NCBI RefSeq assembly: GCF_000447755.1
Contig: NZ_AUNE01000027.1
Location: 1-64,000, forward strand
Origin: Bacteriovorax sp. BSW11_IV
GTDB taxonomy: Bacteria > Bdellovibrionota > Bacteriovoracia > Bacteriovoracales > Bacteriovoracaceae
Length of the DNA stretch: 64,000 nt
Direction: 5' to 3'
The notes beneath the pieces are model-generated. The model was not told where the DNA came from. It saw only the letters and a program-made list of their open reading frames with translations, and did no database searches. This document shows positions 53,622 to 58,763 of the stretch, piece by piece (position 1 is the stretch's first letter; each line of letters opens with the position of its first letter). A program made the translations under genes and the position numbers.

Positions 53622-54752
53622 ATGCATAAGGTGACGATTAGACCAACTGGCCAAATTGTAGAGATTGATGAAGATAAAACTCTTCTTCAATCTCTAAAAG
53701 ATCAAGGTCTATTTATTAATTCATCGTGTGGTGGACACGCGAGCTGCTCAGATTGCATTATTAAAATCATTGATGGTGAGGATTATGTAAATACGCCTCC
53801 ATTTCCTGAAGTGCAATTAATGGGTAACGTTTTTCATATTACTAAAGAGCGTCTGTCATGCCAGACATACGTAATGGGTGATATCACTATTGATATTTCT
53901 GATCACGATAAAACACGTGTTGATGATCGTCTTAATAAAAAAGGACGCGGCTTTCTTAAAAATAGAGCGCCAGTTAATACGAAAGTTAGAAAGAAAGAAG
54001 ATGTTGATAAAATGTACACTGAACGCCAAGCTATTCGTGATGAAAAGCGCGAAAAAGATGGCGAGTGGCAAAAGCACTGGGAACGTGAAAAAGATGTTCT
54101 TGCTGTTAAGAAACTTGGTGGCGGAAAAAGGCCAAGACTTTTTAGAACTGATCATTTAGAAGAGAAAATGGCCGAGGCCAGCGAAGAAAATAAAAGAGAA
54201 CAGAGCGCACCACGCGAGTTCAGAGAAAAACGCGACTTCGGTGACAAGCGCGAGTTCAGAGAAAAACGTGACTTCGGTGAGAAGCGCGAGTTCAGAGAAA
54301 AGCGCGAATACGGCGAAAAACGTGATTTTAGAGAGAAACGTGAATTTGGTGAGAAGCGTGAGTACAAAGGAAAGCGCGACTTCAACGAAAACCGTGAGTA
54401 CAAAGGAAAGCGCGACTTCAACGAAAACCGTGAGTACAAAGGAAAGCGCGACTTCAACGAAAACCGTGAGTACAAAGGAAAGCGCGACTTCAATGAAAAC
54501 CGCGAGTACAAAGGTAAGCGCGATTTTAATAAAGGGCCACGTCCTGATCGTGACTTCAGACGCCCACGTGAGGAGCGTGAAGACGGTGAAAACCGCGGAC
54601 CACGTACTCCAAGAGAAGATAGGCCTAGATTTAAAGATTCTGCCTTTCCAAGACCTAAATCATCTCAAAGAGATGGACAAGCACAGAGAAAGGATAGAGG
54701 CGATAAGGCCGGTTTTCCAAGAAAAGATTTTAGAAAAAGTAGAAAAGATTAG
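53622..54752 (+). CDS. 2Fe-2S ferredoxin fused to long basic/acidic repeat tail
   Basis: Residues 1-95 are a [2Fe-2S] ferredoxin domain: HKVTIRPTGQIVEIDEDKTLLQSLKDQG, the cluster-binding CGGHASCSDC and the fourth Cys in RLSCQTYV. A long charged extension follows (to residue 376). Residues 198-305 are nine copies of a 12-residue unit alternating Arg/Lys and Glu/Asp with aromatic residues (types REFREKRDFGEK and REYKGKRDFNEN), encoded by a 36-base tandem repeat. The end is rich in Arg, Asp and Pro. The tail should be unstructured and could bind RNA or negatively charged partners. Such a fusion is not a standard ferredoxin type to my knowledge. AAGGAA precedes the start, eight bases after the previous gene. 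Confidence 0.88.
   Translation: MHKVTIRPTGQIVEIDEDKTLLQSLKDQGLFINSSCGGHASCSDCIIKIIDGEDYVNTPPFPEVQLMGNVFHITKERLSCQTYVMGDITIDISDHDKTRVDDRLNKKGRGFLKNRAPVNTKVRKKEDVDKMYTERQAIRDEKREKDGEWQKHWEREKDVLAVKKLGGGKRPRLFRTDHLEEKMAEASEENKREQSAPREFREKRDFGDKREFREKRDFGEKREFREKREYGEKRDFREKREFGEKREYKGKRDFNENREYKGKRDFNENREYKGKRDFNENREYKGKRDFNENREYKGKRDFNKGPRPDRDFRRPREEREDGENRGPRTPREDRPRFKDSAFPRPKSSQRDGQAQRKDRGDKAGFPRKDFRKSRKD
54213..54536 (+). repeat. 36-bp tandem repeat inside the ferredoxin gene, nine units
   Basis: Nine in-frame 36-base units start at 54213, 54249, 54285, 54321, 54357, 54393, 54429, 54465 and 54501. Units five to eight are nearly identical at DNA level, differing by a few bases, while the first four have diverged. 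The absence of non-repeat spacers separates this from a CRISPR array. Confidence 0.92.
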
Positions 54753-55406: not shown

Positions 55407-57056
55407 TTATTCTTGACCAGATCTTTCCTCAGGAATATTTATTTTCGCAGAATTGACGGGGATCGTTATTGTGAACTGCGCAAACTCATTTTCCAGGGTA
55501 TCAAGCTCTATATGGCCATCGTGAACCTTATTAATAATATCAAAACTCAGAGAAAGTCCTAAACCAGTCCCTTCCCCGGCCGCTTTAGTCGTAAAAAATG
55601 GAGTGAAGATTCTGTTACGATTTTCTTCCTTAATACCCAGACCATTGTCTCTAACTTGGATGGTAATTAGACCATTGTTGTGAGAGGTCGAAATTTTTAA
55701 TTGAGGTACATAGCTGTGGCCGAGAAGATCTTTTTTCTTTTTCATTGAATAAAGTGCGTTTGAAAAAAGATTGAGAAATACACGAGAAATATCGGCGCGC
55801 ACAACTTTTAAGGGCGGAAGTCCTTCGTCAAAGTTTTTCATGATATTGGCACTAAAGCCATCGTACTTAGCACGTATGGCCTGACCAGCAAATTTGAGGT
55901 TCTCTTCAATCAGTTCATTAATATCAGTTTTAGTGAAACTCATTTTATTGTGGCGAGAGTGTTCAAGCATACTTTTAATGATTTCTTCTGCTCTTTTCCC
56001 ATGTTGAGTGATTTCTTTATTCATCGATAGAATGTCAGAGACAACATAGTTGAGTTCTGTTCTTTGTTCTTGGTTGAGATCTTGTTTTAAAAGCTCATTG
56101 GCCTCGTCGAGGGCCTCAACACAGGCCTTTGAAAAATTGATGATAAAGTTTAGAGGGTTGTTAAGCTCGTGGGCAATCCCTGAGGTGAGTGAACCTAAAC
56201 TTGCTAACTTTTCTTGAGCAATCAATTTATCTTGGAAGTTTTTAATTTCTTCAATCTTCTCTTGAAGAATGACGTTTTTATTTTGTAGCTCTTTTGTTCT
56301 CTTATGTACTAGCTCTTCAAGATGATCTTTATATTCTTGTAGTTTCGCCTCGGCCTTGTCTCTCATTCCAATATAGCTCTTAAGATTGATTCTCATATCG
56401 TTGATTGAATTAACGAGTAAATCAATTTCATCTTTTGAATTATCAATTTTCGTGATCTCAATTGGCCTATCAAGACTACCTGGAGTCATTTCACTGGCAT
56501 AACGGCTAATCTCTACAATTTTTCTCGTAACGATTACGTAAATGATGAACATGATACACAGGGAGACGAGAAAAGTTTTTACTGTCTGGGTCATTAAAAT
56601 GACAAGGATTCGGTCCCATAGTCTTTGATAGATATTATCAAGGTTGATTTTGACTTCTAACAAACCAATGGAGAGTTCCTCTTGCGCCTCGACGTATTTG
56701 AGGGCAATTGTTTTTGTCAGAGCATTAGTAATTTTTTTATTTCCCACTTCATAGAATAAATACTTGTCACCTTCTCGCAACTCATTAATGCTGATGTATT
56801 CAACATCGGGCAATTTACTAATCCCTGTGATTTGTATTGTCAGTTGATCTCTGTCAAGGTGCCAAAGAGAGTTGGCCAGGGAATTGGTGTAGATTGTTTC
56901 AATTTGAGTTAGGGTGTCGTTTGCTTTTAATAGATCTTTTTTATAATCCAAATAGAGTTGAATCAATGTTCCCAGAAAAGTAAAAAATGTACTACATAGC
57001 AATATGTATTTAAGAAGTTTAAATTGTAATTTGGTATGAGACTTATTTGCCTTCAT
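55407..57056 (-). CDS. Sensor histidine kinase, orphan
   Basis: The 549-residue protein is a membrane-bound two-component sensor. Order: membrane helix (LLKYILLCSTFFTFLGTLIQLYL, about 15-40), periplasmic sensor domain (about 40-150), second helix (TFLVSLCIMFIIYVIVT near 165), HAMP-like region, coiled coil, and HisKA with GSLTSGIAHELNNPLNFI. The ATPase domain follows (VFLNLFSNALYSMKKKK, DNGLGIKEENRNRIFTPFFTTKAAGEGTGLGLSLS). The catalytic His is in the motif IAHELNNPL near residue 300. No response regulator is adjacent, so its partner is encoded elsewhere. I start at 57056 because GGAG precedes this ATG, rather than the upstream TTG at 57068. Confidence 0.95.
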   Translation of the reverse strand: MKANKSHTKLQFKLLKYILLCSTFFTFLGTLIQLYLDYKKDLLKANDTLTQIETIYTNSLANSLWHLDRDQLTIQITGISKLPDVEYISINELREGDKYLFYEVGNKKITNALTKTIALKYVEAQEELSIGLLEVKINLDNIYQRLWDRILVILMTQTVKTFLVSLCIMFIIYVIVTRKIVEISRYASEMTPGSLDRPIEITKIDNSKDEIDLLVNSINDMRINLKSYIGMRDKAEAKLQEYKDHLEELVHKRTKELQNKNVILQEKIEEIKNFQDKLIAQEKLASLGSLTSGIAHELNNPLNFIINFSKACVEALDEANELLKQDLNQEQRTELNYVVSDILSMNKEITQHGKRAEEIIKSMLEHSRHNKMSFTKTDINELIEENLKFAGQAIRAKYDGFSANIMKNFDEGLPPLKVVRADISRVFLNLFSNALYSMKKKKDLLGHSYVPQLKISTSHNNGLITIQVRDNGLGIKEENRNRIFTPFFTTKAAGEGTGLGLSLSFDIINKVHDGHIELDTLENEFAQFTITIPVNSAKINIPEERSGQE

Positions 57057-57299
57057 TTGCTCCAACAAACTAGAATGTCGCGATTTATGAGATATCTTAA
57101 ATATTATATACGATTATCTTTCGAGATCATGTTTTTTTTGACATAAATATATCTCTATTCTTGTCTTAGGCGGGGGCCTTACGCTATGTTGTTTCTTTTG
57201 GCCTAAGTCTTTCTCAATTTTATGTTCTTTTTATTCAAGGAGCAGTTTTAGCCGCTGTGCTGTGGCCATTTATGCTCAATTCAATAAACTGTAGGCATT

Positions 57300-58763
57300 A
57301 TGTCTCAACAGTTAGATTACGGTGATAAATCACCATTACGTTTAGTTAAAAATGCCTTTGGCCCAAGCACGAAAGAAGTTCGTGCTCATGAGCTAACGCA
57401 GAATTGGCCATGGCCTTCGGTCTCCCCGCACGGACCAGGAAGTGTTGCACCGAGTGTTATTCATGTTCCAAAAAAAGAAATTGATGAATTCCTATCAAAA
57501 GTTGTGAAGCGCTATATTCGCACTATTCAAAAATTTGGTCTGTCATTTTTTAAAGAATCACTTTTCAAAAGGGATTATAAGAAAACGAGCGATGAAGAGT
57601 TTGTTCATATTTTTACCCAATCAGTTTACGCGAAGTTTTTTTGCGAAAAGCTTGATCAAAAAGATAGGGATACTTTTTTTGCATTTTTAAATGATAGGGA
57701 TACGTTTTATAAAGTTGATATGAGTCATTTGGCGAATATGGAAACGATAGAAGGAATCGATCTTTATCCTTCAACTTCCCTTTTTAAATGGGAAGAGGGG
57801 AAAATCCAATTAGTTGCCATTAATATGAATAATCAGGTTTACACCACCAGACATCGTCAATGGGACATTGTGAAACTTTTAGTTTTGCAAGGTGCGGCCG
57901 TTAGACTTCTTATTTGTGAGCACCCTAGAGCGCATTTTCCCATTGATTCCTTCGTTGGCGTCTCCCAGTGTCTTCTTAATCGTGAATCATTGTTATATCG
58001 ACTATTGTCGCCACATTTTTACATGCAACTTCCACTGAACTTTGCAGTTCTCTATATTTCAAAGTCTGTGGCCCACAATAATCAAAATGAAATCTATACA
58101 CCGTTTCCCTGTACGAAAAAGGGATTTCTCTCAAGTTTAAAAACGTCATTCAGCGGAATTGAGGGCAATAGCGCTTATCCGGCCTATCGCTTTAGGCTGA
58201 CACCCGATGAGATTTACGGTCCCTATGGAGATTTTCTCTCCCTTTATTGGGAAGTTATATTTTCTTTTGTGTGTGATCTTTTTAAAGATATATCTCAAGC
58301 ACAACGAAGTGAAGCAGATGTGAGAGCGTGGGCAAAAGAATTACATTTTCTAATCCCAGGCTTTCCTGGCCCCGATGAAATTATTAAAGGGGATACTTTA
58401 GAGCGCGTGGTGACGAGCTTCATACACAATGTAACGGTTGAGCACTCAAGCGATCATTACAACTATTCTTCATTTGCTCGCGACCAATTACCCCTGCGTG
58501 TGAGAAAGGCCTTGGATGATCATCATTGGTCTTTTGAGGGAAGTTTAAGTGGTGAGGATTATGCTCGTCATGAATTGGCCACAAAGATGTATTTTCAGAC
58601 ATCCACACTTATTTCCCTTACTCAAGTTAAGTATGATTTTGAGGCCAGTAAACAAATGAAAGTGTCCCATTTTCATCATAATTTGCGAGAGCTCGATAGG
58701 GGACTGACACCCCAATTACGCTTTATTCCTCTTGCGCATATCGCCTCAAGTATCCAATTTTAA
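57300..58763 (+). CDS. Compact lipoxygenase-like protein
   Basis: The 487-residue protein matches the catalytic core of lipoxygenases, iron dioxygenases that add oxygen to polyunsaturated fatty acids. From memory of human 5-LOX, His212 in HPRAHF fits the second iron-binding His, because the spacing to LLSPH (His239) is 27 residues in both. Asp/Phe-rich GDFLSLYWEVIFSFV and AKELHFLIPGFP match conserved helices, and EHSSDHYNY (His382, His386) matches the third and fourth ligands; a His at the fourth position occurs in mammalian 15-LOX. The chain ends SSIQF, similar to the C-terminal iron ligand (usually Ile). Odd points: the first His pair is H-x3-H, not the usual H-x4-H; there is no PLAT domain or signal peptide. 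Confidence 0.78.
   Translation: MSQQLDYGDKSPLRLVKNAFGPSTKEVRAHELTQNWPWPSVSPHGPGSVAPSVIHVPKKEIDEFLSKVVKRYIRTIQKFGLSFFKESLFKRDYKKTSDEEFVHIFTQSVYAKFFCEKLDQKDRDTFFAFLNDRDTFYKVDMSHLANMETIEGIDLYPSTSLFKWEEGKIQLVAINMNNQVYTTRHRQWDIVKLLVLQGAAVRLLICEHPRAHFPIDSFVGVSQCLLNRESLLYRLLSPHFYMQLPLNFAVLYISKSVAHNNQNEIYTPFPCTKKGFLSSLKTSFSGIEGNSAYPAYRFRLTPDEIYGPYGDFLSLYWEVIFSFVCDLFKDISQAQRSEADVRAWAKELHFLIPGFPGPDEIIKGDTLERVVTSFIHNVTVEHSSDHYNYSSFARDQLPLRVRKALDDHHWSFEGSLSGEDYARHELATKMYFQTSTLISLTQVKYDFEASKQMKVSHFHHNLRELDRGLTPQLRFIPLAHIASSIQF

Follow-up and report, generated by a model that had tools for sequence, protein, structure and literature searches.

The gene at positions 57300 to 58763 of the window, by which we mean the whole 64,000-nucleotide stretch of Bacteriovorax sp. 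BSW11_IV DNA that was analysed, is real, and its 487-residue product, P0001, is placed in the lipoxygenase superfamily by its predicted fold and by homology. Comparison with its relatives shows that the protein-derived ligand positions of a predicted metal site are all retained (H208, H212, H382, H386 and the C-terminal carboxylate), and that its clade is marked by a first histidine pair one residue shorter, a Coffa-site valine and an aromatic C-terminal residue. The open frame runs from an ATG to a TAA and ends in SSIQF (Table 1). The landmarks that had been picked out in the original prediction are present, namely the H-x3-H pair, the intervals of 27 residues from H212 to H239 and 170 from H212 to H382, and the C-terminal phenylalanine, and they are not a chance pattern, since H208, H212, H239, H382 and H386 are invariant in all 34 family sequences. 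A Pfam scan of P0001 found neither PLAT nor any other domain, no transmembrane segment was evident, and no signal peptide was evident by inspection. We consider it reasonably probable that P0001 is a lipoxygenase-superfamily metalloenzyme with a single domain and a cytosolic location, its metal being predicted.

Table 1. Coordinates of the lipoxygenase-like gene, its predicted functional residues and the adjoining kinase gene in the window.
Feature	Position	Strand	Evidence
Lipoxygenase-like gene (P0001, 487 aa)	57300..58763	+	Open reading frame; fold model matched to lipoxygenases; family alignment
H208-x3-H212, predicted first metal-ligand pair	57921..57935	+	Spacing 4 in 34/34 family vs 5 in 26/26 canonical sequences
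H239	58014..58016	+	Present in every family and canonical sequence, always 27 after the H212 position
V250, presumed Coffa position	58047..58049	+	Val in 33/34 family vs Ala in 25/26 canonical sequences
H382-S-S-D385-H386: predicted third ligand His, clade-specific acidic residue, fourth-position His	58443..58457	+	H382 and H386 in 34/34, D385 in 33/34
F487, C-terminal; main-chain carboxylate the expected metal ligand	58758..58760	+	Phe/Tyr in 33/34 vs Ile/Val/Leu in 25/26 canonical sequences
CHASE5-HAMP-HisKA-HATPase histidine kinase, divergent neighbour	55407..57068	-	Pfam
Possible control region shared by the lipoxygenase-like gene and the CHASE5 kinase	57069-57299

A lipoxygenase fold, on whose absence the original prediction had beforehand been made to fall, is present in an AlphaFold2 model built from the family alignment (pLDDT 89.6, pTM 0.89, with pLDDT below 50 at residues 1-33 only). 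When this model was compared with the PDB by Foldseek, all 50 matches listed were lipoxygenases (E 2e-14 to 6e-12), CspLOX2 and a myxobacterial enzyme being included; among these listed matches the highest TM-score was 0.73, normalized to query length, and identity to P0001 was 12-16%. At E<=1 a family profile retrieved 52 different PDB sequences, every one of them named as a lipoxygenase and ALOX5 and ALOX12 included (best E 4.4e-11), and alignment of the family to 26 canonical myxobacterial lipoxygenases by hhalign gave a probability of 99.75 and an E value of 3.3e-27 over 347 columns. The Pfam lipoxygenase profile, PF00305, with a cut-off of 23.6 bits, had been proposed as a check, and here the outcome was divided: P0001 itself had no match in Pfam-A, PF00305 included, or in NCBIfam, but its siblings did, the paralogue in its own genome (C11:118601-119989, 33% identical to P0001) giving 19.2 bits (E 4.7e-4), a same-genus homologue rising above the cut-off with 26.1 bits, and 20 of 28 family members matching at E<=1 (best 1.1e-7). 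The description of a divergent, compact lipoxygenase-like protein lacking PLAT is thus borne out by the fold model, the family profiles and the Pfam scan. P0001 has the catalytic-domain fold, three aligned ligand histidines and a fourth position of the Asn/His/Ser type; because it lacks H-x4-H, a C-terminal Ile (rarely Val) and an Ala/Gly Coffa residue, we do not class it as a canonical lipoxygenase.

The altered metal site was defined in a joint alignment of the 34 family members with 26 canonical bacterial lipoxygenases, the latter all myxobacterial. Spacings of 4 (H208 to H212), 27 (H212 to H239) and 4 (H382 to H386) are constant throughout the family. In helix 9, the first ligand pair has a spacing of 4 in every family member vs 5 in every canonical sequence, while the distance from the second ligand histidine to the next signature histidine is 27 in all 60. 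MAFFT, hhalign and HMMER (the comparisons being with 12-LOX and 5-LOX) agree in placing a one-residue gap between the two ligand histidines. One reading, in which the family's pair would stand for histidines two and three of the canonical signature and the first ligand would be missing, was considered and rejected: the first histidine of that signature, H362 of 5-LOX, is not a ligand, and the distances from W to the ligand and from the ligand to H399 equate H208 with H367 and H212 with H372. H239 is the counterpart of H399, the non-ligand signature histidine of the same enzyme. In the DSSP assignment of the model the helix is interrupted at 211-213, close to the two prolines that flank the pair (P209 and P214), and simple deletion of a pi-helical bulge between the two ligands is a candidate idea that the model brings to mind. 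In one place the first pair of Myxococcus fulvus LOX1 is given as His372/His376, i.e. H-x3-H (PMC6612559); if this is no misprint, the shorter pair would not be unique to the P0001 clade.

The remaining positions differ from the canonical set to varying degrees. The 'shifted iron ligand' originally ascribed to H386 is inaccurate, as H386 occupies the usual Asn/His position, filled by His in 34 of 34 family members and by Asn (23) or His (3) in the 26 canonical sequences; the true anomaly is the first pair, one residue shorter. The residue before the fourth-position histidine is Asp in 33 of 34 family members vs Val in 20 of 26 canonical ones, and R402 and D420 are invariant in the family. The column of V250, which we take to be the Coffa site from 5-LOX numbering, separates the two sets almost completely (Table 1). 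The family C-terminus aligns end-to-end with the canonical SIxI, and its last residue is Phe or Tyr in 33 of 34 cases, as against Ile (22), Val (2), Leu (1) and Thr (1).

Literature searches returned nothing on the P0001 clade, whose 34 sequences come from Bdellovibrionota, Bacteroidota, Yersinia, Pseudomonas, Myxococcota and Planctomycetota. Genome contigs searched once with an alignment of 11 sequences yielded 29 loci, with hosts among Bacteriovoracaceae, Halobacteriovoraceae, Algoriphagus and another Cytophagales bacterium, and further afield in Yersinia rohdei, Y. alsatica, Pseudomonas, Myxococcales, Paraglaciecola, Cocleimonas, a Schlesneria and an actinobacterial bin. Among 291 Bdellovibrionota genomes the family profile matched 25, of which 23 belong to the taxonomic family of the window genome; it also matched 5 of 25 Yersinia genomes and 7 of 194 genomes of the Algoriphagus order. 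One Yersinia copy (G623:C1:766695-768155, in the genus of Y. rohdei) contains an in-frame TAG and may be decaying there. Neither the viral contigs nor the plasmids searched encode a relative, which gives no support to an origin on mobile elements. In a separate comparison with BFVD, the P0001 model matched giant-virus proteins predicted to have a lipoxygenase domain (mimivirus, Yasminevirus, Terrestrivirus); a 2026 paper describes lipoxygenases as undetected in viruses (PMC12993299).

In the tree, the 34 family members are split from the 26 canonical sequences (a myxobacterial-only sample) with an SH-aLRT of 100 and one label change, which indicates that the P0001 clade is sister to, and outside, the canonical bacterial lipoxygenases, a branch that had not been separated from them before. 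P0001 pairs with L015 (support 98; L numbers denote loci and G numbers genomes) and lies near L016, the Schlesneria sequence and a Myxococcales/actinobacterial pair, and two further P0001-type sequences, 38-39% identical, occur in G251 and G136. The main Bacteriovoracaceae clade holds the C11 paralogue; P0001 stands apart from it, which makes it either an old paralogue or a gene acquired by transfer. Its branch is long (0.91), it deviates at several otherwise near-invariant family residues (Y193, A191), and a genome of the same genus, G001, has only the other paralogue. Of the two genome copies P0001 is the more divergent one, with every ligand kept.

The P0001 gene stands alone, head to head with the CHASE5 sensor histidine kinase gene upstream and followed by an open frame lacking a Pfam match, and no conserved operon was found among its nearest relatives (L147, L148, L015, L016). 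The window also encodes, at 53622-54752, a protein whose N-terminus is ferredoxin-like (CGGHASCSDC) and whose long, charged tail consists of EYKGKRDFNEN repeats. Across the family, a recurrent neighbour is a histidine kinase whose hydrophobic, multi-transmembrane N-terminal domain (TGGF...IWF...LP) has no Pfam match, represented by L026:6372-7667 with homologues in L018 (in G005), L020 (in G020), L023, L028, L036, L004 and L151. It adjoins the lipoxygenase-like gene in 8 of 23 positive genomes of the window genome's family, on the same strand upstream (G005, G261) or downstream (G012, G016), convergently (G020, G245, G270) or divergently (G168); three of the eight have same-strand abutting pairs, and at L026 the kinase frame begins immediately after the stop of the lipoxygenase-like gene. 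A relative of the kinase lies one gene from the P0001-type gene of G251, and the window genome has two tandem copies on contig C10, none adjoining P0001. Genomes carry no more than 1-3 copies of this kinase. It is enriched among lipoxygenase-positive genomes, being present in at least 19 of the 23 vs roughly 14 of ~67 others; as the latter denominator is an estimate and relatedness is uncorrected, the Fisher test of this enrichment serves as a rough indication. Other signalling genes that abut family members encode a kinase-GAF-cyclase (Algoriphagus), a SpoIIE phosphatase (the Cytophagales bacterium) and ECF sigma factors (two gammaproteobacterial bins). A patatin/NTE-type phospholipase gene starts within 26 bases after the Schlesneria copy and a lipid-droplet-type hydrolase precedes L036, both of which would fit a lipid substrate. 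Aldehyde dehydrogenase and flagellin neighbours were discarded as functional links, as they belong to one Bacteriovoracaceae subclade and look like inherited gene order.

We favour the view that P0001 works like a lipoxygenase, a reading that model and alignment together make rather likely, and its most likely role would be that of a non-haem Fe (or Mn) dioxygenase producing an oxidized-lipid signal. P0001 would bind Fe(II/III) or Mn; a metal-hydroxide, Fe(III)-OH, would take a bis-allylic hydrogen from the 1,4-pentadiene of a polyunsaturated acyl chain, and O2 would then be added to give a hydroperoxy lipid, as in lipoxygenase chemistry, with the Coffa-site valine probably limiting the position of O2 entry. 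The window genome has four PF00487 fatty-acid desaturases, at least one of them (L119) delta-9-like by inspection, and dienoic lipids are therefore conceivable. Against the lipoxygenase reading, the hosts are not known to produce any polyunsaturated fat. Another of the four desaturases, at L118:1411-2358 (contig C57 of the same genome), resembles dihydroceramide/sphingolipid delta-4 desaturases and suggests sphingolipid synthesis in this organism. More tentatively, the oxidized lipid might act as a signal in this Bdellovibrionota family, because membrane histidine kinases belonging to a single subfamily repeatedly adjoin the family gene. That a dedicated membrane histidine kinase reads the lipid signal of the clade, as oxylipin signalling that includes predatory Bdellovibrionota, is a speculation we hold to be possible but doubtful. 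The original prediction had also envisaged action on prey lipids. To act from outside on the membranes of prey, P0001 would require an export route, as neither a signal peptide nor a transmembrane segment is evident in it, which counts mildly against that idea. A role on predator or prey lipids can be surmised, and the relatives include the non-predators Yersinia and Pseudomonas; the only genomic clue to role points to signalling kinases.

Other explanations have to be set against lipoxygenase activity. An unrelated helical metalloprotein with a chance likeness to lipoxygenases might be argued from the low identity of P0001 to solved structures and its own missing Pfam match, but profile, profile-profile and structural matches were to lipoxygenases only, and we give this reading practically no credence. 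It is also conceivable, though rather unlikely, that the fold serves another chemistry, either that of a hydroperoxide isomerase/epoxy-alcohol synthase like mammalian eLOX3 or the oxidation of mono-unsaturated, sphingoid or isoprenoid lipids. The metal-ligand positions are all kept in the clade, but its changes surround the metal/O2 site (shorter pair, D385, Coffa Val, aromatic C-terminus, R402, D420), and no polyunsaturated fats are known from hosts such as Yersinia and Pseudomonas. The latter point loses force in that Burkholderia thailandensis, which lacks polyunsaturated fats, can have an active lipoxygenase (PMC11011848).

Neofunctionalization or decay of P0001, leaving a pseudo-enzyme or lipid-binding regulator with the C11 paralogue as the true enzyme, strikes us as improbable. 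The long branch, the departures from near-invariant residues, the loss of the H390 equivalent (LNRES for LPKxH), the failure of PF00305 to detect P0001 and the fact that G001 has the other paralogue alone speak for such a history. However, the open frame is undamaged, every ligand is intact, as are D385, R402, D420 and the SIQF at the C-terminus, and the independent P0001-type sequences L015, L112 and L117 (38-39% identical) keep both H-x3-H and the SIQ-aromatic end.

Lipoxygenases are described as rare in bacteria, occurring in <1% of species (PMC6612559), and the biological role of bacterial oxylipin signalling is reported as still unconfirmed (PMC11011848). Part of the P0001 clade is missed by PF00305. 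The clade demonstrates that the predicted ligand set can stay while the spacing of the ligands, the C-terminal residue and the residue at the Coffa site all change, and it is a natural experiment in how the metal is tuned and O2 is placed. Should the linkage to the kinase prove true, oxylipin signalling in bacteria would gain a concrete pair of enzyme and sensor, and since family genes often adjoin a membrane sensor kinase, lipid-oxidation signalling in bacteria may exceed its known extent.

The metal ligands of lipoxygenases are described as common to all, with the carboxylate ligand usually Ile and very occasionally Val (PMC13059375), and it is against this background that P0001 can be compared with known enzymes. 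CspLOX2 of Cyanothece (5MED), a compact iron lipoxygenase of 569 aa lacking PLAT (PMC5437038), shares the single catalytic domain, the overall fold (Foldseek E 2e-14) and the arrangement of three histidines, a fourth side chain and a C-terminal carboxylate; in contrast to the H-x3-H, His386 and Phe487 of P0001, it has H257-x4-H262, with H449, N453 and a C-terminal I569. Canonical myxobacterial lipoxygenases (MF-LOX1, PMC6612559; Enhygromyxa salina, 8x8f) resemble P0001 in catalytic-domain homology, ligand order and similar distances but differ in that position 4 is usually Asn, the Coffa residue Ala and the last residue Ile; about 40 myxobacterial open frames were examined, and H-x4-H was present in each one in which the motif was found. 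Such canonical genes are common in Myxococcota, occurring in 44 of 284 genomes, and several of these genomes have three or even four matches, which frequently lie in tandem. Mammalian ALOX15 shares the four-histidine arrangement, whereas ALOX15 and ALOX5 both have a PLAT domain, H-x4-H and a C-terminal Ile. Fungal manganese lipoxygenases are like P0001 in lacking the beta-barrel and in having a C-terminal residue other than Ile (Val; PMC13059375), but theirs is not aromatic.
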